Origin: Thauera sp. GDN1 | Lineage (GTDB): Bacteria > Pseudomonadota > Gammaproteobacteria > Burkholderiales > Rhodocyclaceae | Direction: 5' to 3' | Length of the DNA stretch: 64,000 bases | NCBI RefSeq assembly: GCF_029223545.1 | Contig: NZ_CP097870.1 | Location: forward strand, 1 to 64,000 | In this document: piece by piece, positions 39,175 through 51,908 of the stretch | Numbering within the stretch: position 1 is the stretch's first letter | How the letters are laid out: each line of letters begins with the position of its first letter | The notes under the pieces: model-generated | Told to the model about the DNA's origin: nothing | Seen by the model: the letters and a program-made list of their open reading frames with translations, nothing else | The model's database searches: none | Program-made: the position numbers and the translations under genes

Positions 39175-40263
39175 TCACGCCGCCACCAGGCGGCGGAAGA
39201 CGCCGAAGCTCCACTGCGCGCCCACGGTCAGCACCACCACGCGCAACACGTGACACACGGTGACGAGCGGCACGCCGAGCTGCAGCACCTTGGCGGTGAT
39301 GCACATCTCCGACACCCCACCGGGCGCGGTCGCCAGCGCCAGCGTGGGCAAAGGGACCGCCGAGACCAGCCCGAGCAGCGCAGCGAAAGCAAAGGCGAGC
39401 ACGATCGACATCGCCGCGGTCAGCCCTGCGACCGCCATGAAAAGCGGTGCGGCACGGAAGAACTCGCGCGAAAACCGGCAACCAAGGGCGCAGCCGATCA
39501 GCAACTGACCGCCATTGACCACCCAGGCCGGCAGCGCCGACAGCGGCACGCCGGCCAGCGTTGCCACCGCCACGCCGAGCAGCGGCCCGAGCACCCAGGC
39601 GTTGGCGATGCGCAGCAGCTTGAACGCGCTCACCCCGAGCAGGCTCGCCCCGATCAGCAGCGGGAAGTGCCGGGCATCCACCGCCTTTGCCAGCGGCACG
39701 TAGAGGTCCGTGCCATGCACACCGGCGAAGGTGAGCGCGAAGGGCAGCACCGACACCACCATCATCACCCGGATGGCGTGAGCCGCGGCGATGCGATCCA
39801 CCGCGCCGCCGTAGCGGTCGGCAAGGTTGGCCATCTCCGAGGCGCCGCCCGGCAGCGCGGCGAAGAAGGCGGTCGGCGTATCGACCCGGGCCAGACGCAA
39901 CATGATGAAGGCGTAGCCCATGCCGAGCACCAGCGAGCCGAGCGCGGCGGCGACCACCAGCGGTGCATGCAAGGCGAGTTGCGCCACCACCTCCGGGCTG
40001 AAGTACAGGCCGAGCGCGGCGCCGATCGCCCATTGCCCGGTCTGGCGCCCGCCGGGGAGCGGGCGCAGGTCGATGTCGGCCATGCGCGCGCCGGCCACGG
40101 CAAACAGCGGCCCGATCATCCACGGCAGCGGCAGATGCAGGCGCTCGGCCAGCCAGCCGGCGAGCGTGGCGAGCGCGAGGGTGGGGACGACCTGGCGCCA
40201 GGCGGTGAGACGGAGTGCGGAGAGGAGGGACATCGGCGGCAGAGCGGGATGGGACGTGGGCAT
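39175..40263 (-). CDS. AbrB-family (AbrB duplication) membrane transporter
   Basis: The 362-residue protein consists of two homologous hydrophobic halves. The paired signatures are TAFFAALPGGASEMANLAD in the first half and LATAPGGVSEMCITA in the second; PGGxSEM is characteristic of the AbrB/AmoA-like membrane family (not the DNA-binding AbrB). The substrate is unproven. The start at 40263 is kept; an internal ATG at 40233 is possible and neither has a clear ribosome-binding site. It lies 71 bp beyond the stop of the binding-protein gene, same strand. Confidence 0.85.
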   Translation of the reverse strand: MPTSHPALPPMSLLSALRLTAWRQVVPTLALATLAGWLAERLHLPLPWMIGPLFAVAGARMADIDLRPLPGGRQTGQWAIGAALGLYFSPEVVAQLALHAPLVVAAALGSLVLGMGYAFIMLRLARVDTPTAFFAALPGGASEMANLADRYGGAVDRIAAAHAIRVMMVVSVLPFALTFAGVHGTDLYVPLAKAVDARHFPLLIGASLLGVSAFKLLRIANAWVLGPLLGVAVATLAGVPLSALPAWVVNGGQLLIGCALGCRFSREFFRAAPLFMAVAGLTAAMSIVLAFAFAALLGLVSAVPLPTLALATAPGGVSEMCITAKVLQLGVPLVTVCHVLRVVVLTVGAQWSFGVFRRLVAA

Positions 40264-40334: not shown

Positions 40335-41444
40335 TCACTCGGTAACCGGCCGGGTAGCGGCATCCCACTGGCGCAGGAAGGCGTCCTTCTTGGCCTGATC
40401 CTGGTAGGCGAGCAGCCCGGAGCCGATGCGGATCGGGCGGAAGGCGTGCTGCAGGTTCTGGTGGAGCAGCGCCGCGGCGCTGTCCGCGCCCGCGGTGCCG
40501 GCGTCGGTGCGCACCGGCAGCAGGCCGAGGTTGGCAGCGAGCAAGGCCTGGCCGCGGGTCGACAGCAGGTGGTCGAGCCACAACCGCGCCGCTGCCGGAT
40601 GGCGCGCGCCGCGCGCGATGAAGGCGACCCGGCTCAGGACGAGGGTGTAATCCCGCGGCAGTGCCACGCCGAGCGCCGGATCGTTGCGCGCACGCCGGTG
40701 CGCATAGGAACCCAGCACGTTGTAGGCCAGCACCAGCTTGCCGGCGGCGACGCGGTCGAGCATGTCGGCGCTGACCGCATGCTGCTCGAGGCCGTTCTGG
40801 CCCATGCCGCGCACGAGCTGCCAGAACACGATCGGGTTGGCCTGCGCGTCCTGGGTGTGCAGCAGCAGGCCGAGGCCGGAGCGCTCGGGGTCGTAGGTGG
40901 CGACCCGCCCGCGCAGTTGCGCCGGCGCGCGGTCGAGCAGGCGGATCAACCCGGCGTGGCTGTCGGGCACGTCGGCCTCGGCGAGCAGGCGCTTGTTATA
41001 GACGATGGCCGCCGGCTCGTAGGTGGTGCCGAAGGCCTCGTCCTTCCACACCGCCCAGCGCGGCAGCGCGGCGGTCTCGGCCGAGCGGTGCGGCTGGGCA
41101 TGGCCGTCGTTGACCAGCTTGACCTGCAGGTCCATCGCCGAGCTCCACACCACGTCGGCGCCGACCACTCCGCGCCGGGCCTCGTCGACGACACGCGCGT
41201 AGAGTTCGGCCGAATGCATGTCGTGGTATTCCACCCGCACGCCCGGGTGGAGGGCCTCGAAATCCTCCACCACCGGCCTGACCACATCGAGGTCTGCCGC
41301 CGCGTAGACGACCACCACGCCTTCCTCACGGGCCTGGGCCAGGCGGTCGCCGATCGGCTCGGCGTGCGCCATTGCCGTCACCGCGGCCAGCGCCACGAAC
41401 GACAGTGCGGATCTCAGCCAGCCGCCCACGCCCCTGCAATTCAC
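40335..41444 (-). CDS. Periplasmic solute-binding protein (iron/organic-acid type), TctDE-linked
   Basis: The 369-residue protein starts at GTG 41444, supported by GGGGAGAA at 41452-41459 and by the signal peptide that begins there (LRSALSFVALAAVTAMAHA, cleavage before EPIG). Mature features include VVVYAAADLDVVRPVVEDFE and YNKRLLAEADVPD, as in AfuA/FbpA-like family 1 binding proteins. No permease or ATPase neighbours it, so it may serve as a sensor ligand carrier for the divergent two-component system. A regulator box lies 119 bp upstream in the same orientation as at the porin and tctC. Confidence 0.85.
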   Translation of the reverse strand: MNCRGVGGWLRSALSFVALAAVTAMAHAEPIGDRLAQAREEGVVVVYAAADLDVVRPVVEDFEALHPGVRVEYHDMHSAELYARVVDEARRGVVGADVVWSSAMDLQVKLVNDGHAQPHRSAETAALPRWAVWKDEAFGTTYEPAAIVYNKRLLAEADVPDSHAGLIRLLDRAPAQLRGRVATYDPERSGLGLLLHTQDAQANPIVFWQLVRGMGQNGLEQHAVSADMLDRVAAGKLVLAYNVLGSYAHRRARNDPALGVALPRDYTLVLSRVAFIARGARHPAAARLWLDHLLSTRGQALLAANLGLLPVRTDAGTAGADSAAALLHQNLQHAFRPIRIGSGLLAYQDQAKKDAFLRQWDAATRPVTE

Positions 41445-41562
41445 CGTTCCGTTCTCCCCATTTGGTGGCGGCATGCCCGCCTTACGCTTCCGGCCCCCGG
41501 GGTGCTGCGGCGTCCGCCGCCTTGGACGCGTCCCGGCTTTGCACAGATAATCCCGCACACGC

Positions 41563-41578
41563 CTTTCGATTCACTTTC
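41563..41578 (-). promoter_or_regulatory. TctD-type box 1 (GAAAG-6-GAAAG)
   Basis: On the minus strand this reads GAAAGTGAATCGAAAG: two GAAAG units 11 bp apart, as expected for an OmpR-family dimer. It lies between the divergent binding-protein and response-regulator genes, 14 bp before the regulator start, so it could also autoregulate tctD. Confidence 0.7.
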
Positions 41579-41591
41579 ACTGGAACCGCCG

Positions 41592-42281
41592 ATGCGCCTG
41601 CTCCTGGTCGAGGACCACGCCGAACTCGCCGAGTGGGTGGGGCGCTCGTTGCGCCAGGCCGGTTTCGTGCTGGACGTGCTCGGCCGCGGCGACCACGCCG
41701 ACCAGGCCCTGCGCACCGAGCGCTACGACCTGGTGATCCTCGACCTGTCGCTGCCCGGCCTCGACGGCCTCGAGGTACTGCGCCGCCTGCGCCACCGCGA
41801 GAGCGGCGCGGACGGCGGCCCGCCCACCCCGGTGCTGGTGCTGACCGCGCGCGGCAGCACCGGGGAGCGCGTGCAGGGTCTCAACCTCGGCGCCGACGAT
41901 TATCTGACGAAACCCTTCGAGCTCGCCGAACTCGAGGCGCGCATCAAGGCCCTGCTGCGCCGCGCCGGCAACCAGGTGCCGCTGGTGCGCCTCGGACGGC
42001 TCGAATTCGACACCACCACCCGCATGGCGGCGGTGGGTGGCCAGCCGCTGGCGCTGACGCCGCGCGAACTGGCGGTGCTCGAGGCCTTGCTGGCGCGCGT
42101 GGGTCGTCCGGTGGCGCGCGAGGCGCTGTTCGAGAAGGTGTTCGATTTCGATGCCGATGCGCGCGTGGAGGCGATCGAGATCTACGTCTCGCGCCTGCGC
42201 AAGAAGCTCGAGGGCGCCGGTGTGGCGATCAACACGCTGCGCGGCCTGGGCTACCTGCTCGCCGAGAAGCCGGCGGACTGA
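41592..42281 (+). CDS. tctD: OmpR-family response regulator, TctD-like
   Basis: The 229-residue protein has a receiver domain (acidic cluster ED at residues 7-8, phosphoacceptor Asp near 51 in VILDLSLPG, Lys in LTKPFELAELEARI). The C-terminal winged helix has VEAIEIYVSRLRKKL. It is followed after 1 bp by its sensor kinase, and the tctCBA operon lies 7 kb away. Three matching direct-repeat boxes in this block are its likely targets. The TctD name rests on this context and sequence style. Confidence 0.85.
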   Translation: MRLLLVEDHAELAEWVGRSLRQAGFVLDVLGRGDHADQALRTERYDLVILDLSLPGLDGLEVLRRLRHRESGADGGPPTPVLVLTARGSTGERVQGLNLGADDYLTKPFELAELEARIKALLRRAGNQVPLVRLGRLEFDTTTRMAAVGGQPLALTPRELAVLEALLARVGRPVAREALFEKVFDFDADARVEAIEIYVSRLRKKLEGAGVAINTLRGLGYLLAEKPAD

Positions 42282-42282
42282 C

Positions 42283-43728
42283 ATGGGCACCCCCGCCCGG
42301 CCGGAACCGGCAGCCGCCTGGCCCGCCCACGGCGGCAGCCTGCGCCGGCGGGTGCTCGCCTGGCTGCTGCCGCCGCTCGCGGCGCTGCTGCTGATCAACG
42401 CCTTCTTCACCTACCGCAGCGCGCTCGACGCGGTCAACCAGGCCTACGACCGCACGCTCACCGCCTCGGTGCGTGCGATCGGCGAGCGCACCCACTCGCT
42501 CGCCGGCCGGATCCAGGTGGACATCCCCTACGCCGCCTTCGAGGGCTTCGAGGACGATGCCGCAGAACGCATCTTCCACGCCGTGTTCGACCCTGCCGGC
42601 GGGCTGGTCACCGGCTACGCCGACCTGCGCCCGCCGGCACTGCCGGACGAAGGCGGGACGGTGCGGATCTTCGACCTGCCCTATGCGGGCGAGACCGTGC
42701 GCATGGCGGCGATGCGCAAGCGCCTGTACGACCCCGCGCTCACCGGCGGCGACGCGGTGCTGATCGTGTTCGCCGAGACCACCGGCGCGCGCCGGGCGCT
42801 GGCGCGGGATCTGTTCGTCGCCAGCCTGCAGCGCCAGTCCCTGCTGGTGGCGGTCGGCGCGCTGCTGGTACTGGCCGCGCTCGGCACCGCCTTCCGCCCG
42901 CTGCTGCGCATCCGCGACCACATCCGCAAGCGCGACGAGGAGGACCTGACCCCGGTGCGCCTCGAGCGCGTGCCGAGCGAGGTCGCGCCGCTGGTCGACG
43001 CCATCAACCACCACATGGAGCGCCTGTCGGCGATGCTCGCCGCGCGCAAGCGCTTCCTCGCCGACGCCGCGCACCAGATCCGCACCCCGCTCGCGGTGCT
43101 GACCACCCAGGCCGAGTACGGCCTGCGCCAGACCGATCCGGACGAAATGCTGGAGACCTTCGCCAGCCTGCTCAGAAGCACGCGCGCCGCACGCCGGCTG
43201 GCCAACCAGATGCTGACCCTGTCGCACGCCGAAGCGGTCAACGGCGTGATCGGCGAGCGCGCCCCCTTCGACCTTGCCGGCCTGGTCAAGGAGGTGGCGA
43301 TGGAGCTCGCCCCGCTCGCGCTCAAGCGCAACATCGACCTCGCCTACGAGGGCATCGGCCACGCGCTGACCCTGGAAGGCAATGCCCCTATGCTGCGCGA
43401 AATGGTATCCAACCTGATCGACAACGCGATCCGCTACAGCCCGCCCGACTCGGCGGTCACCGTCGCCGTCGCCGCCTTCGACGACCAGGCGATGGTCAGC
43501 GTCTGCGACCAGGGCCCGGGCATCCCCGTGGCCGAGCGCGAGCGCGTCTTTCACCGCTTCTACCGCATCCTCGGCCAGGGCGACAGCGAGGGCAGCGGGC
43601 TCGGGCTGGCGATCGTGCGCGAGATCGCGCTCGCCCACGGCGGACGCGTCAGCCTGCACGACGGCGAGGGTGGGCGCGGACTGTGCGTCGAGGTAGAGCT
43701 GCCGCTCGGCGGCGCACCGGCATCCTGA
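42283..43728 (+). CDS. tctE: Sensor histidine kinase, TctE-like
   Basis: The 481-residue membrane kinase has a first helix at about residues 23-45, a periplasmic sensor region to about 185, and a second helix at about 186-207. The dimerisation box is AAHQIRTPLAVL with His near 264, followed by an ATPase with NLIDNAIRYSPP, DQGPGIP and GSGLGLAIV. The sensor part has the DUF4118-free TctE style found with tricarboxylate systems. It overlaps operonically with tctD (1-bp gap). Confidence 0.87.
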   Translation: MGTPARPEPAAAWPAHGGSLRRRVLAWLLPPLAALLLINAFFTYRSALDAVNQAYDRTLTASVRAIGERTHSLAGRIQVDIPYAAFEGFEDDAAERIFHAVFDPAGGLVTGYADLRPPALPDEGGTVRIFDLPYAGETVRMAAMRKRLYDPALTGGDAVLIVFAETTGARRALARDLFVASLQRQSLLVAVGALLVLAALGTAFRPLLRIRDHIRKRDEEDLTPVRLERVPSEVAPLVDAINHHMERLSAMLAARKRFLADAAHQIRTPLAVLTTQAEYGLRQTDPDEMLETFASLLRSTRAARRLANQMLTLSHAEAVNGVIGERAPFDLAGLVKEVAMELAPLALKRNIDLAYEGIGHALTLEGNAPMLREMVSNLIDNAIRYSPPDSAVTVAVAAFDDQAMVSVCDQGPGIPVAERERVFHRFYRILGQGDSEGSGLGLAIVREIALAHGGRVSLHDGEGGRGLCVEVELPLGGAPAS

Positions 43729-43787
43729 GCCGCGGGATCCCCCTGCGAACGCCCCCGCCCGTTTTCTCCTCGCCCGCGGGCCGCACT

Positions 43788-43803
43788 GAAAGCCGATCGA
43801 AAG
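43788..43803 (+). promoter_or_regulatory. TctD-type box 2 upstream of the porin
   Basis: GAAAGCCGATCGAAAG lies 73 bp before the porin start, in the same orientation as the gene. It differs from box 3 at a single position in 16. Confidence 0.75.
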
Positions 43804-43876
43804 GCGTCGGCGCTGCAATGCGCGCCACGCGCCCGATCCCGTTGGCGCGTGCACCCGAACGATCGAGGAGACTCCC

Positions 43877-44920
43877 ATGCAACGCCTTTCCGCGCCGGTC
43901 CTGATGGCCGCCGCCCTCGCCGCGCCGTCGCTCGCGCTGGCCCAGTCCAACGTCACCGTCTACGGCCTCATCGACCTCAACCTCGGCTACGAGAAATCCG
44001 GTTCCCAGCGCTACCAGGGCGTGGGTCACGGCGAACTCAACGGTTCCCGCCTCGGCTTTCGCGGCAACGAGGACCTCGGCAATGGCAACAAGGCCCTGTT
44101 CGTGCTCGAGAGCGGCTTCGACCCCTCGACCGGCACCCTCGAGCAGGGCGGCCGACTGTTCGGCCGCCAGTCCTTCGTCGGCCTCGAGAACGGCCTCGGC
44201 CGCCTGACCCTGGGCCGCCAGTACTCGCCGGCCTTCGACGCCCTCGACCCCTTCGACGCCACCGGCAACGCCGACCGCAGCGCCGGCCTCCTGATCCGCA
44301 AGGCCGGCGCGGTCAAGCCCGCCTACGAGGTACGCTTCGACAACATGATCAAGTACCGTTCGGCCAAGCTCGCCGGCTTCGAGCTCGAGGGCGGCTACTG
44401 GTTCGGCAAGGAGAGCGGGACCGACTCGAGCGCGCGCCAGGAGGGCGACGGCCACGGCATCGCGGCGCTCTACGCCAATGGCGCGCTCGCCGGCTCGCTG
44501 GTCACGCAGACCGTGCAGCGCGACGCCAGCGGCGGCAAGGTGCGCACCGACGGCTTCGCCCTGTCCTACGACTTCGGCATCGTGAAGCCCTATTTCGCCT
44601 GGTCGCAGGACGAGGAGCGCGGCACCGTGGGCAATGGCAAGGCGCGCAGCTGGGACCTCAGCGCGGAGATCCGCCTCGATCCGGCGAACACGGTGGCGAT
44701 CAGCTACGCCGAGCGCGACGAATCCGACGGCGCCGCGAGCGAGGACGCCAGCGGCTGGTCGGCCTACTATCTGCACGCGCTGTCCAGGCGCACCACGCTG
44801 TACGCCGGCTACTCGCAGCTCGACAACGAGGACGGCGCCAACTACGCGATCGGCAACCTGACGCCGGACGCGGGCGACAAGCACCAGGTGATGATGGCCG
44901 GCATGCGCCACCGCTTCTGA
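43877..44920 (+). CDS. Gram-negative porin (Neisseria/Burkholderia type)
   Basis: The 347-residue protein has a 22-residue signal peptide (PSLALAQ). It starts with NVTVYGLIDLNLGYE, which is characteristic of betaproteobacterial trimeric porins. GSRLGFRGNEDLGNGNKALF and RQSFVGLENGLGRLTLGRQY follow, and the protein ends in Phe (MRHRF). GAGGAGA is the ribosome-binding site. The upstream box and position between tctDE and tctCBA suggest it is the outer-membrane entry for the same organic acids. Confidence 0.93.
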   Translation: MQRLSAPVLMAAALAAPSLALAQSNVTVYGLIDLNLGYEKSGSQRYQGVGHGELNGSRLGFRGNEDLGNGNKALFVLESGFDPSTGTLEQGGRLFGRQSFVGLENGLGRLTLGRQYSPAFDALDPFDATGNADRSAGLLIRKAGAVKPAYEVRFDNMIKYRSAKLAGFELEGGYWFGKESGTDSSARQEGDGHGIAALYANGALAGSLVTQTVQRDASGGKVRTDGFALSYDFGIVKPYFAWSQDEERGTVGNGKARSWDLSAEIRLDPANTVAISYAERDESDGAASEDASGWSAYYLHALSRRTTLYAGYSQLDNEDGANYAIGNLTPDAGDKHQVMMAGMRHRF

Positions 44921-44969
44921 GCCCCCCACCCGGCCCGGCGGCGAGCGCGCAGCCGCGGCGCCGGCTTGC

Positions 44970-46787
44970 CTACAGTGCGCTGCCGGGCTGGCAGCGCATG
45001 GGGGCGGGGGCGAAGACGGTGCGTTCGACAGGGGCGCGGTAGGGCTCGTAGAAGCCGGTGAGGGACAGGCGGGACTCGAGGACGTCGTCGGCGCTCACGC
45101 CGGCCGGCAGGGCGAAGGCGAATTCCGCCGCCTCGCCCCACAGCAGGCGCAGGTAGTCGCGATCGCGGGCGGCGAGGCGGGCTTCGGCCGGCGCCAGGAC
45201 GAGCACCCGGCCATCCTTCAGGCGCAGCGCGAGTTCCGCGAGGTCGATGAACGCCGCCTCCGCTTCGCGCTCCTCCACGCGGAAGAGCGGCCGGAATCCG
45301 GGGACCACCAGGCTTGCGGTCTCCTCGCGCGCGCTGCCCTGGGCGCGGTGCAGCACCTTGCCGTGCTCGATCCAGTCCGCGCCGTGCGCGTCGGCCGACA
45401 GCAGATAGGGGCAGGAGCCGATCTGGCTGCTCACCGCGAGCACGGTGAAGTTGGCGCGCTGGCGCACCAGGTCGACGCGCCGGCCGTCCACCTGCAGCCC
45501 GCTCACCGCCAGTTCCGGCCCGTAGGCATAGTCGCGCATGATCGGCGCGCCGTGTGCGGCCACATCCCCGAGCAGGCCGTTCGTCCCCACTTGCTGCCAG
45601 ATCTCGCGCGAGGTCTCGGTGTAGCGGAACATCGCCTTGTCGAGCCGGCCGGGCGCGAACACGATCCGCGTCGGCAGCAGCAGGCGCTGCCCCGGTGCCA
45701 GCGTCACCTGCAGCGGCAGCGGCTGTCCGGCCGCGGCCGGGTAAGGCATGGGCCGCAGGCGCGGCGCCTGGACGCGGGTGCCGACCACGGCCGCGAGCGC
45801 GAGCGGCCGCGCCGAGGCGTTCTCGATCAGCACCGCCTCCAGGAAGGGCGTCCGGGTGGTGTGACGGAAGATCCAGCCGCCGATGCCGCCGATGCCGTCA
45901 CCGCAGGTGGTGGTGATGCCGCCCACCAGGAACACGAAATCCTCCGGCCACGCCTCGCCGGCGACGTAGCGGTACAGCTGCAGTGCGCGCGGCAGGGCGC
46001 TGCGCCCGATCGGCTCTGCGGTCAGCGGCGCCTCGCCGCCGCGACTGGCACGCAGCTCGGCCCTGAACTGCGACAACAAGCGGTTGTAGGCCTGGACCCG
46101 CTGCGCATGCAGCTGCAGGTCCTCTTCCCGCATGCCGCGCCAGAAACGCATCTGCGCCGACCCCGGATCCATGTCCGCGCAACGCGCGCCGCCCTCGGGA
46201 GCGTCGCCATCCTCGTCGTTGCACCACACCTCGTAGAAGAAGCGCAGCCCGGGCGGGATCATGCCGCGGCGCAGCGCGGCGATCTCGTCCGCCGCCGGAT
46301 AGTCGTTCCACTGGTCGTCCGCGCCGAGCACCGACCTCAGGCGCCCCGCTGGCATCGAATCCTCCGATTCGCCGACCATGCCGCCGCCTTCGGAGGTGTC
46401 GATCGACAGCCCGGCGAGCATGCCGTCGCTCACCTCCTCGCCGGTGAACTCCATCGTCACCCCGAAGCGCGCGATCAGCTCCGCGTAGGCGCGCGACACC
46501 GCGTTATCCACCAGCACCGGCCGGCCGATCGTCCGCGCCAGCAGCGTGGACGCCCGTCGCGCAACGATCAGGCTCGCCGCCACGTCCGAAAAGCGGTGCT
46601 GCTCCACCCTCAGCTGCGCCGCGTCCGGGCCCGAGCCCAGGGTGCATACATGGCTGCGCAGGCGCACGACGTTGTCCGCGTCGAGCGCCACCGCGCGCGC
46701 ATCCTCCACGCACTGCGCGCGCGCAGGCAGCGCCATCGCCAGCAGCACCAGGGCGGCCACGCCGGCCCGCATCATCGCTCGCCACAT
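44970..46787 (-). CDS. Secreted protein of unknown function paired with the TIR-TPR protein
   Basis: The 605-residue protein has a clear signal peptide (AGVAALVLLAMALPARA, then QCVEDA). The ATG at 46787 was chosen for GGAGG about 5 nt upstream; a GTG two codons earlier overlaps that site. Cys residues occur in probable disulfide pairs. The central part is acidic with Gly/Ser-rich loops (GGITTTCGDGIGGIGGW), and the C-terminal half is beta-rich (LQVTLAPGQRLLLPTRI). I recognise no family. It lies 31 bp downstream of the TIR-TPR gene on the same strand, so the two are probably coexpressed. Confidence 0.7.
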   Translation of the reverse strand: MWRAMMRAGVAALVLLAMALPARAQCVEDARAVALDADNVVRLRSHVCTLGSGPDAAQLRVEQHRFSDVAASLIVARRASTLLARTIGRPVLVDNAVSRAYAELIARFGVTMEFTGEEVSDGMLAGLSIDTSEGGGMVGESEDSMPAGRLRSVLGADDQWNDYPAADEIAALRRGMIPPGLRFFYEVWCNDEDGDAPEGGARCADMDPGSAQMRFWRGMREEDLQLHAQRVQAYNRLLSQFRAELRASRGGEAPLTAEPIGRSALPRALQLYRYVAGEAWPEDFVFLVGGITTTCGDGIGGIGGWIFRHTTRTPFLEAVLIENASARPLALAAVVGTRVQAPRLRPMPYPAAAGQPLPLQVTLAPGQRLLLPTRIVFAPGRLDKAMFRYTETSREIWQQVGTNGLLGDVAAHGAPIMRDYAYGPELAVSGLQVDGRRVDLVRQRANFTVLAVSSQIGSCPYLLSADAHGADWIEHGKVLHRAQGSAREETASLVVPGFRPLFRVEEREAEAAFIDLAELALRLKDGRVLVLAPAEARLAARDRDYLRLLWGEAAEFAFALPAGVSADDVLESRLSLTGFYEPYRAPVERTVFAPAPMRCQPGSAL

Positions 46788-46818
46788 CGCCACCTCCCTG
46801 CAGGCGCACCCGGTCCGC

Positions 46819-48528
46819 TCACGGGGGCAATTCGGCCAGCAACTGCTCGATCGCCCCTTCCCATTCAGTCTGGTTCACGTCCAGACGCCCGTCCAGGCGG
46901 CGCAGGATCGCGAGCGCGCGCTCGTAATGCGCGCGCGGCCGATCGCCGGCCCGGGCCAGCTCGACCAGGCTGCCGACCACGTCGGTCTGCAGGCGCACGT
47001 CGTCGGGGTAGGCCTGCGCCAGCGCCTCGCGCAGCGCCAGGCTGGCGCGCAAGGCCGCCAGCGCGGCGTCGGTGCGCCCGGCCTGCAGCAGGATGCGGCC
47101 GAGGTTGTGCTCGCTCACCGCCAGGTCGCGCTGCCACGCCGGGCTGTGCGGCTCGCGCTGCACCGCCCGGCGCCGCAGCTCGCGCGCGGCGGCATAGGCG
47201 TGCTCGGCCTCGTCCACACGGCCGGACAGCTCGGCCAGGCGGCCCATGCGGTCGTGGCTCACCGCCAGATCGGCCAGCCACTGCGGACGTGCCGGGTCGG
47301 ACTCGACCAGCGTGCGGCGCAGCGCCAGGCTGGTCTGGTAATGGGTCCGCGCCGCGTCGGGATCGCCCAGCTCGAGCAGCACGTCGCCGATGCGCTCGTG
47401 GCTCACCGCGATGTCCCGTCCGGTCTGCGCCGCATCGTCGTCCGCAGGCCGAACGCGCTCGCGCTCGTCGAGGCCGGCGCGAAAGACCGCCAGCGCGCGC
47501 GCCGGATCCCCGCTGCGCAGCAGGGCCTCGCCCACCCGGTTGTGCGCGATCGACAACTCCCGCCGCCAGTCGCGATTGGCGCCATCGAGCGCCACCAGCG
47601 CCGTCATGATCTCGCGCGACGCGCTCGCCGCCGCCAGCGCCGCCGCCGCATCGCCGCGCACCAGTTGCGTGGTGGCCAGCTCGCGCAGGGCCATCGCCTC
47701 GAGCCGGCGCAGGTCGGGCAGCATCTCGGGCGTGCTCGCCAGGCGCTGCTGCATCGCGCGCGAACGCTCCACCACCGCGCCGATCGTCTCCGGCGCGAAG
47801 CCGCCCGCCGGCCGCCCGCCCACCACCATGTCGAAGCCGAAGGACTGCGCGATCCGCCCGCCTTCGAGCGCACGCAGCGCGCGGTCGCGCTCGTTCGCCG
47901 CCATCCACCCCGCCGCGGCCGCAGCCACCGCCAGCCCCAGCATCGCCGCCGCCGCCGACCACGCCAGGCGCAATGCACGGCGCTGCAGGCGCAGCTCCTC
48001 CGACAGCAGATCCTCCCTTGGCATGCCCCGCACCACCGCGGCGAGGTCCGCCGCACGGGCCACGAAATCCTGCGCGCGCAGCGCCGCGCGCAGGCGCCAG
48101 TCGCGCACGTCCACCCATTTCGGCTCGTGCGCGAAGCGCCCCTTCAGGGCCGGCGGCAAGGGCGTCTGCGCCGACCAGGCGAAATCGCCCGCCGCCTCGT
48201 CCCAGCTCAGCTCGCCCGCGGTCAGCGCGAGCAGCAGCGTGTCCGCCCCCTTGTGCGCCAGCCAGTGCGCGACCTCCCGATCGACCCAGTGCGACGCCGC
48301 CGCCTCGGGCGAAGCGAGCAGGATCAGGAAGCGCGACCCCTCCAGGGCCTCGACGATCGACGGCCACAGCGCCGGCGTCGCGGCCAGGCTGGTGTCGTCG
48401 CGGAACACCCGCAGGGCCCGCCGCTGATACCAGGGCTTGCCCAGGCGCTGCACCACGTCCTGCAGCGCGGTCGCGATCCCGCGATCGCGCGCGTGGCTGT
48501 ATGAAATGAACGCGTCGTAGCGCCCCAT
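46819..48528 (-). CDS. TIR-domain protein with transmembrane helix and TPR repeats
   Basis: The 569-residue protein begins MGRYDAFISYSHARD after GGGGAACG. The TIR-like domain covers about residues 1-130: FRDDTSLAATPALW is followed by SHWVDREVAHWL, whose Glu near 85 sits where NADase TIR domains (as in SARM1) have their catalytic Glu. A single membrane helix lies at about 183-203 (AAAAMLGLAVAAAAAGWMA). The region from about 270 to 560 is a tandem TPR/tetratricopeptide array with repeated ERIGDVLLELGD-like units. Bacterial TIR proteins act in defence or signalling; which applies here is inference. The downstream gene encodes a secreted protein. Confidence 0.85.
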   Translation of the reverse strand: MGRYDAFISYSHARDRGIATALQDVVQRLGKPWYQRRALRVFRDDTSLAATPALWPSIVEALEGSRFLILLASPEAAASHWVDREVAHWLAHKGADTLLLALTAGELSWDEAAGDFAWSAQTPLPPALKGRFAHEPKWVDVRDWRLRAALRAQDFVARAADLAAVVRGMPREDLLSEELRLQRRALRLAWSAAAAMLGLAVAAAAAGWMAANERDRALRALEGGRIAQSFGFDMVVGGRPAGGFAPETIGAVVERSRAMQQRLASTPEMLPDLRRLEAMALRELATTQLVRGDAAAALAAASASREIMTALVALDGANRDWRRELSIAHNRVGEALLRSGDPARALAVFRAGLDERERVRPADDDAAQTGRDIAVSHERIGDVLLELGDPDAARTHYQTSLALRRTLVESDPARPQWLADLAVSHDRMGRLAELSGRVDEAEHAYAAARELRRRAVQREPHSPAWQRDLAVSEHNLGRILLQAGRTDAALAALRASLALREALAQAYPDDVRLQTDVVGSLVELARAGDRPRAHYERALAILRRLDGRLDVNQTEWEGAIEQLLAELPP

Positions 48529-48683
48529 CGTCCGTTCCCCAAGGACCGCTCCGGGCAACGATACGCCGATCCACCCCGCCCGCCACGCCTCTCGAGCAAG
48601 CGCGTGGTGCAGGCCGAAGGCGATCGGACTGGGCGGGAGGGGCGGCGGCGGGACAAGCAGGCGTGCCCCATGCCGGGCGCAGC

Positions 48684-48708
48684 AAAAAAAGAGCGCCCGA
48701 AGGCGCTC
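48684..48708 (-). terminator. Rho-independent terminator of tctCBA
   Basis: The minus-strand reading is a 7-bp GC stem (GAGCGCC/GGCGCTC, 48691-48697 with 48702-48708) with a TTCG tetraloop, then seven T. This is a textbook terminator 98 bp after the tctA stop. Confidence 0.9.
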
Positions 48709-48748
48709 GTCGAAAGGGGCTGCGGACCGGGAGTGGGCCGCGGCCCGC

Positions 48749-48787
48749 GCGGCTTGCCGGCCGGGGAGGAACCGGCCGGCAAGCCGC
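48749..48787 (-). repeat. 16-bp perfect hairpin in the tctA 3' untranslated region
   Basis: Arms 48749-48764 and 48772-48787 are exact complements with a 7-nt loop. It lies between tctA and its T-tailed terminator, so it would be in the mRNA 3' end and could block exonucleases. Confidence 0.8.
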
Positions 48788-48805
48788 CGAGATGGGCGTC
48801 GCGGC

Positions 48806-50314
48806 TTACGCGGCAGCCGGCACCGACTTGCGCTGATCCAGCATGCGCATCAGGCGCGGACCGACCAGCATCCCCGCGGCCACCACCCACAGGCCGATCG
48901 CGATCGGGCTGGCGAACAGCACGCCGACGTCGCCGTCGCTGATCGACAGGGCGCGGCGCAGGTTCTGTTCCATCATGTCGCCGAGCACGAAGCCGAGGAT
49001 GAAGGGCGCGATCGGGAAGTTCATCACCCGCAGCAGGTAGCCGATGCCGCCGATGAAGGTGCCGAGGATCAGGTCGAAGGTCGTGCCATGCACCGCATAC
49101 ACGCCCACCAGCGACACCGCCGCCACGCCCGGCACCAGCAGCCAGTTGGGGATCGACAGGAAGGCCACGAACACGCGGATCAGCGGGATGTTCATCACCA
49201 GCAGCATGACGTTGGCGATGAACAGGGAGGCGATCAGGCCCCACACGATCACCGGCTGGTCCTGGAACAGGGTCGGCCCCGGGGTGATGTTGTACAGCGT
49301 GAGCGCGCCGATCATCACCGCGGTGGTGCCCGAACCCGGCACGCCCAGCGTCAGCATCGGCACCAGCGAACCGTTCGCCGAGGCGTTGTTGGCCGCCTCG
49401 GGCGCCGCCACGCCGCGGATGTCGCCGCGACCGAACTCGCTGTCCTTGCCCGCCATGCGGCGCTCGGCGGCGTAGCACATCGCCGAGGCGATGGTGGCGC
49501 CGGCGCCCGGCAGCACGCCGATGAAGAAGCCCGACAGCGAGCAGCGCAGCAGCGTCCACTTCGCCATCAGGAACTCCTTCGTGCTGAACATCAGCCGGCC
49601 GGTCAGCGTGATCGGCTCGCTCGCGGCATGCTCGTTCTGCAGCATCAGCATCAGCTCGCTGACCGCGAACAGGCCGATCACGATGACGATGAAGGGGATG
49701 CCGTCCTGCAGGTGCAGCGCGTCGAAGGTGTAGCGATACACGCCGCTGTTGGCGTCGATGCCCACGGTGGACAGCAGCAGGCCGATCAGGCACGCGGTCA
49801 GCGCCTTGGGCAGCGAGTCGCCGACCAGGCCGCCGAGGCAGCACAGCGCCAGCACCATCAGCACGAAGTACTCGGCGGGGCCGAAGGCGATCGCCCATTC
49901 GGCGAGCAGCGGCGCGAAGGCGACGATGCCCAGGGTGGCGACCAGCGCGCCGGTGAAGGAGGCGAGCGCCGACATCGACAGCGCCGGGCCGGCGAGGCCC
50001 TTCTTCGCCATCGGATAGCCGTCCATGGTCGTCATCACCGCGCCGGCGTCGCCGGGCACGTTGATCAGGATCGCCGAGATGCGCCCGCCGTACTCGCAGC
50101 CGGCATAGACCGCGCACAGCAGGATCAGCGCGGATTCGGGCGGCAGCTTCATGGCGAACGCGATCGGCAGCAGGATGGCGACGCCGTTGATCGGGCCGAG
50201 GCCGGGCAGCAGGCCCACCACGGTGCCGATGAAGCAGCCGATCAGCGCGATCATCAGGTTTTCGGGCGTGCCGGCGACGGCGAAGCCCTGCATCAGCATA
50301 GACAAGGTTTCCAT
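48806..50314 (-). CDS. tctA: Tripartite tricarboxylate transporter large membrane subunit TctA
   Basis: The 502-residue protein has about 12 membrane segments. Characteristic TctA blocks are GLLPGLGPINGVAILLP near the N-terminus and the paired NNASANGSLVPMLTLGVPGSGTTA region. METLSMLMQGF at 50314 is the start, 4 bp from the tctB stop. With TctB it forms the ion-coupled permease fed by periplasmic TctC. The exact substrate (citrate, other carboxylates) is not readable. Confidence 0.94.
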   Translation of the reverse strand: METLSMLMQGFAVAGTPENLMIALIGCFIGTVVGLLPGLGPINGVAILLPIAFAMKLPPESALILLCAVYAGCEYGGRISAILINVPGDAGAVMTTMDGYPMAKKGLAGPALSMSALASFTGALVATLGIVAFAPLLAEWAIAFGPAEYFVLMVLALCCLGGLVGDSLPKALTACLIGLLLSTVGIDANSGVYRYTFDALHLQDGIPFIVIVIGLFAVSELMLMLQNEHAASEPITLTGRLMFSTKEFLMAKWTLLRCSLSGFFIGVLPGAGATIASAMCYAAERRMAGKDSEFGRGDIRGVAAPEAANNASANGSLVPMLTLGVPGSGTTAVMIGALTLYNITPGPTLFQDQPVIVWGLIASLFIANVMLLVMNIPLIRVFVAFLSIPNWLLVPGVAAVSLVGVYAVHGTTFDLILGTFIGGIGYLLRVMNFPIAPFILGFVLGDMMEQNLRRALSISDGDVGVLFASPIAIGLWVVAAGMLVGPRLMRMLDQRKSVPAAA

Positions 50315-50318
50315 GGCT

Positions 50319-50762
50319 TTACCCCAGGATGCCGTCGAGCCACAGCCCGGTCGGCAGCGCGACGTCGAGCAGGCGGTCGAAGAAGAAGAACATGCCCACG
50401 CCCAGACCGATGCCGCCGAGCACGCACTGCTTCCAGCTGCCACCGAAGAAGCGCGCGACCGGAATGGTCATCAGCGCAGTGGCGATCACGAAGCCGAGCT
50501 TGTCGAACAGCAGGGCGTAGGCCAGCACGATCAGGAACAGCAGGCCGATGCGGGCGAGCACGGGCGGCGGCGCCCACGTCGTCTCGCTCTTCTTGTCGAG
50601 CATCAGCGTGATCGCGCAGATGCCCAGCAGAAACAGCACCAGCAGCGGGAAGGCACGCGGCCCGACCGGCTCGTAGGACACCGGCGGCACGTAGTTCCAG
50701 CCGATCAGGATGCCGGCGATGCTGACCAGCAGCAGCACGCCGCCGAGGATTCTTTCACTCAT
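50319..50762 (-). CDS. tctB: Tripartite tricarboxylate transporter small membrane subunit TctB
   Basis: The 147-residue protein has four hydrophobic helices and the YEPVGPRAFPLLV block typical of TctB. GGGAG precedes the start. It is located between tctC and tctA in the standard C-B-A order. The 61-bp gap from tctC contains a GC-rich stem (bulged) that could set the higher tctC expression usual for binding proteins. Confidence 0.92.
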   Translation of the reverse strand: MSERILGGVLLLVSIAGILIGWNYVPPVSYEPVGPRAFPLLVLFLLGICAITLMLDKKSETTWAPPPVLARIGLLFLIVLAYALLFDKLGFVIATALMTIPVARFFGGSWKQCVLGGIGLGVGMFFFFDRLLDVALPTGLWLDGILG

Positions 50763-50823
50763 GTCGATCTCCCGATGAGGAGGCCCGGGGCCGTGACCGG
50801 CCCGGGGTGGCGAGGACGGTGGC

Positions 50824-51807
50824 TTACCGGGCGAGCAGGCCGAATTCGTGCGCGAGTGCGGTGTAGCGCTTCACTTCCGCGCTCACGTAGTCCTCGAGCG
50901 CCTGGCCGGTGAGGGCGAAGGGGAACAGGCCGCGCTCCTGGCGCAACTTGTCGAACTCCGGCGCGGCCAGCATCTTGTCGAAGGTGGCGGTCCACCACTG
51001 GCGGTCGGCGTCGGCGACCTTGGGTCCCATGTAGTAGCCGCGCGCGATCGTCCAGTCGACGTTGTAGCCCTGCTCGATCGCGGTCGGGATGGCGGCGAGT
51101 TCGCCCGGCAGGCGCTCGGGGGCGAGCACCGCGAGCACGCGCACGCGGCCGCCCTTGAGGTGGGCGGCGACTTCGGAGGCGTCGCCGGTGTAGGCCTGCA
51201 CATGGCCGCCCATCAGCGCGGTCATCGCCTCGCCGCCGCCCTCGAAGGCAACATAGCGCATGTCCTTGTAGTTCACGCCGGCCTGCTTGGCGATCAGCGC
51301 CGACTTCATCCAGTCCTGGCTGCCCACCGAACCGCCCGAGCCGTAGATGACCTTGCCGGGATTGGCGCGGGTGGCCTCGATCAGGTCCTTCAGCGACTGG
51401 TAGGGCGAGTCCGCCTTGACGATCACCGCACCGTAGTCGGCACCGACCGCGGCCACCCACTTCACGTCCTGCTCGGTGTATTTGCCGAACTTGCCGATCG
51501 CCAGGTTCAGGAAGGAGCCGCCGGAGAACGCGACCACGGTGCCGCCTTCGGCCGGGCGGTTGGCGATCACGGTGTTGTAGGCCACCGCGCCGATGCCGCC
51601 GGGCATGTAGGTCACCCGCATCGGCGCCTCGAGGTAGTTGCCGTTCTGCAGCGCGCTCTGCACCAGCTTGCAGGTGAGGTCGAAGCCGCCGCCGGGCTTG
51701 GCGGGGGCGATGCATTCGGGCTTCTCGGGGGCGGCGTGGGCGACGCCCGCGGCGAGGGTGGCCAGCACCGCGGTGGTGGCGGCGAACAGGGTCTTCTTCA
51801 GCAACAT
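50824..51807 (-). CDS. tctC: Tripartite tricarboxylate transporter substrate-binding protein TctC
   Basis: The 327-residue protein has a signal peptide (TLFAATTAVLATLAAGVAHA). The Bug-family opening CIAPAKPGGGFDLTCKLVQ, then VTYMPGGIGAVAYNTVIANRP, is diagnostic of citrate-type TctC. ATG 51807 follows GGAGGAG at a spacing of 6. That ribosome-binding site is complementary to a sequence 52 nt upstream (51814-51890 repeat). Regulator box 3 lies 86 bp upstream. Confidence 0.94.
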   Translation of the reverse strand: MLLKKTLFAATTAVLATLAAGVAHAAPEKPECIAPAKPGGGFDLTCKLVQSALQNGNYLEAPMRVTYMPGGIGAVAYNTVIANRPAEGGTVVAFSGGSFLNLAIGKFGKYTEQDVKWVAAVGADYGAVIVKADSPYQSLKDLIEATRANPGKVIYGSGGSVGSQDWMKSALIAKQAGVNYKDMRYVAFEGGGEAMTALMGGHVQAYTGDASEVAAHLKGGRVRVLAVLAPERLPGELAAIPTAIEQGYNVDWTIARGYYMGPKVADADRQWWTATFDKMLAAPEFDKLRQERGLFPFALTGQALEDYVSAEVKRYTALAHEFGLLAR

Positions 51808-51813
51808 GACGAT

Positions 51814-51890
51814 CTCCTCCGTATCGGAATGTGTTCGCTGCGCGGCGGACACGTGCCGCCTCGCAGGGTGGGGCGGACGATACGGAGGAG
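51814..51890 (-). promoter_or_regulatory. 13-bp inverted repeat that can sequester the tctC ribosome-binding site
   Basis: Arms 51814-51826 and 51878-51890 are exact complements. In the tctC transcript the downstream arm CGATACGGAGGAG contains the whole Shine-Dalgarno sequence, and the upstream arm CTCCTCCGTATCG would pair with it. This matters for translation only if transcription starts upstream of 51878. Confidence 0.6.
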
Positions 51891-51892
51891 GG

Positions 51893-51908
51893 CTTTCGAT
51901 TGGCTTTC
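51893..51908 (-). promoter_or_regulatory. TctD-type box 3 upstream of tctC
   Basis: On the minus strand this reads GAAAGCCAATCGAAAG, two GAAAG units 11 bp apart, oriented toward tctC and 2 bp from the inverted-repeat arm. Confidence 0.75.

Follow-up and report, generated by a model that had tools for sequence, protein, structure and literature searches.

A conserved GAAAG direct repeat associates a TctDE system with porin, binding-protein and tctCBA genes in Thauera sp. GDN1

Two-component control of tripartite tricarboxylate transporter (TTT) operons is known from Salmonella, Pseudomonas aeruginosa and Bordetella pertussis, and here we describe a short direct-repeat box that probably provides such control in Thauera sp. 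GDN1. The box was found in the window, the stretch of 64,000 nucleotides analysed here (contig NZ_CP097870.1, positions 1 to 64,000, forward strand), close to a tctDE gene pair. Control of tctCBA by TctD is established in Salmonella (PMC5812351), in which the tctC promoter is genetically TctD-dependent (Widenhorn 1989, as cited in PMC5812351 and PMC4513871). TctD of P. aeruginosa controls opdH-tctCBA and tctD through a short motif; the motif is present before tctD itself, from which the authors conclude that TctD is autoregulated (PMC4513871). BctDE of B. pertussis controls bctCBA in response to citrate, with the binding protein communicating with the sensor (PMC5812351). Control of tctCBA and of a porin by TctD is therefore already known, the latter from Pseudomonas.

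The Thauera locus resembles that of P. aeruginosa (TctDE/opdH-tctCBA) in having a TctD-linked porin gene along with tctCBA (PMC4513871), and that of B. pertussis in the predicted two-component control of a TTT operon, a likeness by description (PMC5812351). The differences lie in the arrangement. In P. aeruginosa the porin gene is inside the tctCBA operon and PhoB shares other targets (PMC4513871), whereas in Thauera a Porin_4-type porin has a box of its own, and an operon for a periplasmic solute-binding protein (SBP) and an AbrB-type membrane protein, SBP-abrB, is added. In B. pertussis bctDE precedes bctCBA and is read in the same direction (PMC5812351). Salmonella tctI has a regulator of the same clade and the sequence GAAAG-N6-GAAAG located 10 bp before a TAACAA hexamer, upstream of tctC. 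There tctC is divergent to tctD, a place taken in Thauera by the SBP gene, and the Salmonella stretch (8 annotated features) has no porin, SBP or abrB, unlike Thauera.

Three copies of one box in the Thauera genome

The 16-bp pattern GAAAGNNRATCGAAAG has three exact copies in the window, with 0 mismatches each:

41563..41578, minus strand, putative TctD box 1, facing the SBP-abrB operon and also inside the predicted tctD leader
43788..43803, plus strand, putative TctD box 2, facing the porin gene
51893..51908, minus strand, putative TctD box 3, facing tctCBA

The genes concerned are the following:

41592..42281, plus strand, tctD, OmpR/PhoB-type response regulator
42283..43728, plus strand, tctE, sensor kinase with 2CSK_N, HisKA and HATPase domains
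40335..41444, minus strand, gene of the orphan periplasmic SBP (GTG start picked by eye)
39175..40263, minus strand, AbrB-family (PF05145) membrane protein, next in the SBP operon
43877..44920, plus strand, Porin_4-type outer-membrane porin
50824..51807, minus strand, tctC, TTT binding protein (PF03401)
50319..50762, minus strand, tctB (PF07331)
48806..50320, minus strand, tctA (PF01970; start inferred from homologs)

The sites had been proposed in a first-pass annotation made from the sequence, and their positions hold. Each consists of two GAAAG units exactly 11 bp apart, and each is oriented toward its gene (SBP, porin or tctC), as that annotation had it. The distance of 73 bp from box 2 to the porin ATG (43877) was reproduced, while box 3 is 85 bp from the tctC ATG at 51807 and box 1 is 118 bp from the SBP GTG at 41444 (annotated as 86 and 119 bp; all three were measured by eye). 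All three window sites fit the 13 positions proposed as invariant, but the ATC before the second GAAAG is not essential across relatives, and comparison among these gives GAAAG-N6-GAAAG as the real core of the box. The annotation's failure to see a fourth copy is borne out, as the window has none even at 2 mismatches (shuffles expect 0.17).

Over the whole genome (one contig, 3,870,385 bases) the 16-bp pattern has 3 exact matches, all of them in the window, and none with 1 mismatch, so that the motif is not unselective. The 16 sites at 2 mismatches are near background, because the total of 19 at up to 2 mismatches compares with 10 for a reversed control. The bare core has 5 copies across the genome, 3 of these being the window boxes; the reversed control is void for the core, which is the same pattern when read backwards. 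TctD is, as annotated, the only OmpR-type regulator in the window, the other 16 of the genome's 17 Trans_reg_C matches lying elsewhere.

Those 16 include a 48% TctD paralog at 1144206, part of a second TctDE-like pair (G000:C1:1144206-1144862), counterparts of which occur in many genomes of the genus. No GAAAG box was found in 20 kb around this paralog or around that of genome G006. A near match, GAAAGGAAAACGAAAG (L009, L045, L048), recurs in several species of the genus and is possibly coding DNA; the 3 copies inspected, one with a further change, sit in open frames of 290 to 499 codons, and in four genomes compared its coordinates place the sequence more than 10 kb from the paralog tctD.

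The box follows tctD among close relatives

We searched 61 genomes (own included) for the 16-bp pattern and for TctD, taking 73% identity or more as a close tctD ortholog. Of the 15 genomes that have a close ortholog, the own genome being one, 13 carry exact sites, as do 3 of the 46 that lack one; in these three exceptions the sites lie inside frames open for 1005, 600 and 470 codons. Within the genus the corresponding counts are 12 of 14 (own included) and 0 of 15. G014 and G018, the two ortholog-bearing genomes that lack an exact site, carry porin sites with one mismatch and core boxes before the SBP gene.

Conservation extends to the orthologous promoters, also where the surroundings have been rearranged. 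The sites stay with their genes when tctC or the porin gene is on another contig (G027, G023 and G016; no porin match was found in the stretches examined of G023), and in G014 and G018 the site is kept though the porin gene is ~7 kb from tctD. Four of the 20 regions compared (G027:C73, G023:C54, G016:C133 and G016:C209) were chosen because they hold a site, and for G014 and G018 the region was positioned so as to include one. When promoters picked for having a site were aligned, ungapped, at the box, pairwise identity was 1.00 in the GAAAG units, partly by this selection of rows. Over the 50 bp upstream of the box it was 0.38 for porin and 0.36 for tctC; the value for SBP is higher (0.70) because that side is tctD coding DNA.

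Box presence tracks one TctD clade

For the wider comparison, TctD homologs from the family and the order were picked by protein alone and their surroundings then scanned. The resulting 38-locus set comprises 26 of 29 new family hits, all 10 new order hits and second copies of G014 and G018; the family hits left out (G110, G214 and G136) are all 54-55% identical. These loci, 712,615 bases in all, hold 66 exact cores, distributed over 34 of the 38. The spacer of 6 is the peak, with other spacers from 0 to 24 giving at most 3 copies, and 249 control combinations of pattern and spacing gave a mean of 1.35 and a largest count of 16 (mean 0.39 and largest 14 in a 20-locus set). The exact core was not found in G278, G375, G548 and G159.

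A sample of 369 genomes from the class supplied 18 TctD-like loci for scanning, of which the own genome contributed two. Exact cores are present at the own tctD and also at G752 and G878, which both have a neighbouring TctC of 57-62%; the remaining 15 loci, the own paralog included, have none. The tctC promoter boxes of Salmonella and Serratia are TGAAAGGGAATTGAAAGG and TGAAAGGTAAATGAAAGG, respectively, and Burkholderia stagnalis has a box before its SBP gene. No exact box was seen in the stretches examined of Phyllobacterium (TctD-like protein of 55%) and Diaphorobacter (46%). Seven of 80 named loci, which are not in the tree described below, have the exact core; none of these 7 has a TctA, TctB or TctC match in its stretch, and the only one of the 80 with such matches, from Oceanisphaera, is without the box.

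A tree of 86 TctD-like proteins places 60 in one clade with support 100/99, Salmonella and Serratia included. The exact core box is present in the stretch examined for 55 of the 60 clade members versus 1 of the 26 proteins outside, that is, the clade holds 55 of the 56 box-bearing rows. The sole outside bearer is G034, in which the box precedes an ORF of 399 aa resembling an efflux adaptor (by eye only). The tree omits two paralog loci (L156 and L159), a short G015 fragment and TctD hits without a locus, and Fisher values from it are not independent, as its rows are related. Sorted by identity to TctD, 52 of the 55 rows at 54% or more have any box versus 4 of the 31 below, counts that favour the clade because the stretches are longer inside it (mostly 20 kb, against mostly ~3.6 kb outside). 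When only the 450 bp upstream of tctD are counted, the numbers are 41 of 55 and 4 of 31. Box presence thus tracks the TctD clade, and not the TctD paralogs.

In several boxes between the SBP and tctD genes the 11-bp phase continues into a third GAAAG-like unit, a hint that further TctD might bind cooperatively:

L217:10350-10376, third-unit box
L218:9681-9707, third-unit box
L225:10361-10387, third-unit box
L227:9719-9745, third-unit box
L230:9637-9663, third-unit box

Streptomyces sp. SID13031 (L117:9933-9959) has three GAAAG units in 11-bp steps just upstream of a 42% TctD-like regulator. In G129 (L232:19934-19949) a second TctD-like regulator, of 37%, has an exact box upstream that faces away from it at the stretch edge.

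The box occupies the -35 position of predicted promoters

The architecture was compared over 115 exact boxes from 65 loci. One hundred of them are within 420 bp upstream of, and face, a gene for SBP (40), TctC (36) or porin (24), a share of boxes and not of loci, since five loci (G056, G034, G049, G752 and G878) were added for having a box. A T precedes the box in 81 of these 100. In all classes TATAAT-like hexamers are most frequent 10 bp beyond the box; at this offset at least 4 of the 6 positions match in 30 of 40 SBP, 19 of 24 porin, 28 of 36 TctC and 7 of 15 other promoters. The usual hexamers of the genus are GATTAT (SBP), TGCAAT (porin) and TATCGT (tctC), and the following elements are predicted for Thauera:

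41547..41552, minus strand, predicted -10 (GATTAT) of the SBP promoter, 10 bp after box 1
43814..43819, plus strand, predicted -10 (TGCAAT) of the porin promoter
51877..51882, minus strand, predicted -10 (TATCGT) of the tctC promoter
41522..41551, plus strand, predicted tctD promoter, with GATAAT as -10 and, as a weak -35, TTGGAC (N18, by eye) or TGGACG (N17)

Because the hexamer peaks 10 bp downstream, the box would cover the -35 position. This is the layout of PhoB/OmpR class II promoters, with a direct repeat of ~11 bp at -35 and a fixed distance to a -10-like hexamer. In the Escherichia coli pho box, direct units replace the -35 with an 11-bp period and roughly 10 bp to the -10. The two boxes differ in their unit, (T)GTCAT in the pho box and GAAAG in the TctD box, and agree in having two direct units in place of the -35. 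The PhoB motif of P. aeruginosa is given in PMC4513871.

The tctD gene itself is a likely target, as box 1 ends just 13 bp from its ATG; for 26 of the 40 SBP boxes, 5-13 bp separate the box from the nearest start-codon complement. Between 41400 and 41700 a single promoter-like match was found, which faces tctD and ends in GATAAT at 41546-41551, and this predicted -10 overlaps that of the SBP promoter on the opposite strand. The -35 word of tctD differs outside close species. Should the predicted tctD promoter be right, the tctD and SBP promoters would be mutually exclusive, and TctD on box 1 would sit at the start of the tctD transcript.

Genes behind the box in relatives point to citrate

Seven of the 15 other boxes precede genes for an ATP-grasp plus citrate-binding protein (G014, G018, G240, G228, G142, G191 and G104). 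PF16114 was matched in G228, G142 and G006; the G014, G018 and G104 proteins match that of G228 at 89-91%, and the lyase-like genes of G240 and G191 were assigned by eye. The best PDB match of the lyase-like protein is 6hxq, the large subunit of citryl-CoA synthetase. The next gene (G228, G142 and G006) encodes a succinyl-CoA-ligase-like protein of at least 900 aa, two of these having weak citryl-CoA-lyase-like parts. In G006 this second gene (L163:8677-11376) encodes 900 aa, compared with 617 aa in the ATP-citrate lyase subunit 6hxj_B, and the middle ~400 aa gave no Pfam or NCBIfam match. The lyase-like gene immediately follows the porin gene in G006 and G004, comes soon after it in G137, and was present in 7 of 13 genomes searched. 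Since the box precedes this ATP-citrate-lyase-like operon in relatives, the substrate points to citrate.

Other genes stand behind the box as well. In G016, G137, G096 and G216 it precedes a distant TTT cassette (TctA 38-39%, TctC 28-31%), and the G016 promoter is nearly the same as the one usual for tctC; in G212 it precedes a DASS carrier and in G155 a DcuC carrier. Further boxes in G142 precede a malic enzyme, a carbonic anhydrase and a weakly TctB-like ORF, and in G129 and G056 the stretch showed no ORF behind the box.

Proteins of the Thauera locus

TctD has a PF00072 receiver and a PF00486 OmpR/PhoB winged-helix domain, and the TctC, TctB and TctA families are all found in one operon. 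By sequence the nearest PDB relatives of the SBP are 3c9h and periplasmic iron-binding proteins such as 7f6n, and a search for the ligands of these relatives returned none. Among the neighbours of the SBP gene, none of the genes scanned, a subset, encodes an ABC transporter part (no genome-wide search was made). The OpdH-type porin is of the OprD family. No match to that family was found for the Thauera porin, which matches only PF13609 Porin_4 and PF00267 Porin_1 (E 0.001 or better). Between porin and tctA (44970-48558), here and in G005, lie genes for a 607-aa protein without Pfam match and a TIR-TPR protein, whose PADLOC matches are weak; G006 has the ATP-citrate-lyase-like operon in this place.

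Discussion

From the sequence of the boxes, their conservation, their phyletic association with TctD and their fixed geometry we infer a mechanism that we hold to be very probable, in which the boxes bind TctD~P. Two TctD DNA-binding domains would sit head to tail on the GAAAG units 11 bp apart, the box would replace the -35, and TctD would recruit RNA polymerase in the manner of PhoB or OmpR. TctE would sense a periplasmic tricarboxylate, most likely citrate, and TctD~P would then switch on the porin gene, the SBP-abrB operon and tctCBA. As box 1 lies just downstream of the predicted tctD promoter, with overlapping -10s, TctD~P at this box should favour the SBP gene and damp tctD. The earlier reading of the boxes as the motif of a TctD regulon is supported by these comparisons. 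Its "complete carboxylate regulon" stays a prediction; judging from the relatives, citrate or a close analogue is the likely substrate.

Several observations weigh against this mechanism and have to be set beside it. Five of the 60 clade members are without an exact core box (G278, G375, G548, Phyllobacterium and G269, the last with a stretch of 3.7 kb). Oceanisphaera arctica has a tctD (45%) divergent to tctCBA and no GAAAG box; its tctD-tctC intergenic region (L051:9840-10010) has an 11-bp direct repeat of GTGACAG instead, and some tctDE-tctCBA systems may therefore use another word with the same geometry. Selectivity is lower for the bare core than for the full 16-bp pattern, the ten genomes searched having 4 to 15 copies each, of which 2 to 4 are near tctD. 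The -35 of the predicted tctD promoter is weak, at least 4 of 6 positions matching at 15 of the 40 boxes versus ~10% at random places. The own genome lacks the lyase-like gene in the 13-genome search, so that the inference of citrate comes from relatives. Finally, the TctD motif of P. aeruginosa is published as a figure only (Fig. 3B, PMC4513871) and stands outside the comparison with GAAAG-N6-GAAAG.

A chance origin of the sites is ruled out by the window shuffles, the whole-genome scan and the control counts of the 38-locus set. A mobile or structural repeat without regulatory function, of which the sites would be copies, would fit their near-identity over ~20 bp in close species, with a common CAST before the box; but the flanks are unrelated and diverged, the genome has 3 exact copies, and boxes are tied to promoters and orientation, so that a repeat element is rejected as vanishingly unlikely. 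We regard it as improbable that the box belongs to another regulator or a sigma-like factor serving the same cluster, with TctD a bystander. The genome does encode 17 Trans_reg_C proteins and TctD binding to the box is predicted, the G034 box adjoins a response regulator outside the TctD clade, and tctDE-tctCBA of Oceanisphaera does without the box. Against this, the box tracks the TctD clade over several families, as far as Salmonella and Serratia, it is missing as an exact site from the 15 genomes of the genus that have no close tctD ortholog, and its 11-bp direct repeat and 10-bp spacer are PhoB-like.

Less remote, though still unlikely, is a carboxylate other than citrate as the substrate of the regulon, such as tricarballylate, aconitate or an aromatic acid. 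TTT systems take many acids (PMC5812351, PMC8102459), and in some genera the box stands before the different TTT cassette or the DASS or DcuC carrier. Citrate is nevertheless the commonest role reported for TTT systems (PMC5812351), and in several genera the box stands before the operon resembling ATP-citrate lyase or citryl-CoA synthetase. Citrate or a close analogue is thus the likeliest substrate of the TctD regulon.

Tentatively, and as a possible rather than an expected history, the TctD regulon could be an old, modular one for citrate uptake and cleavage. TctD and its box would have been kept together from Burkholderiales-like genomes to enterobacteria, while the transporters behind the box were replaced (distant TTT, DASS, DcuC) and the lyase-like operon was gained or lost. 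The orphan iron-type SBP would be a second periplasmic co-sensor for TctE in Burkholderiales-like lineages, with the overlapping -10s as a built-in feedback switch.

The literature searched, in part and without most subscription papers or the P. aeruginosa motif figure, contained no written GAAAG-N6-GAAAG consensus, no fixed distance to the -10, no SBP-abrB or lyase-like targets of TctD or transporter swaps behind a kept box, and no account of the phyletic reach of the box. A box so sharp and so widely conserved would make TctD regulons predictable by sequence. It places an orphan SBP and an AbrB-type membrane protein in a putative citrate-type regulon, and it may offer a test bed for promoter swapping, in which the box is kept and the transporter behind it changes.

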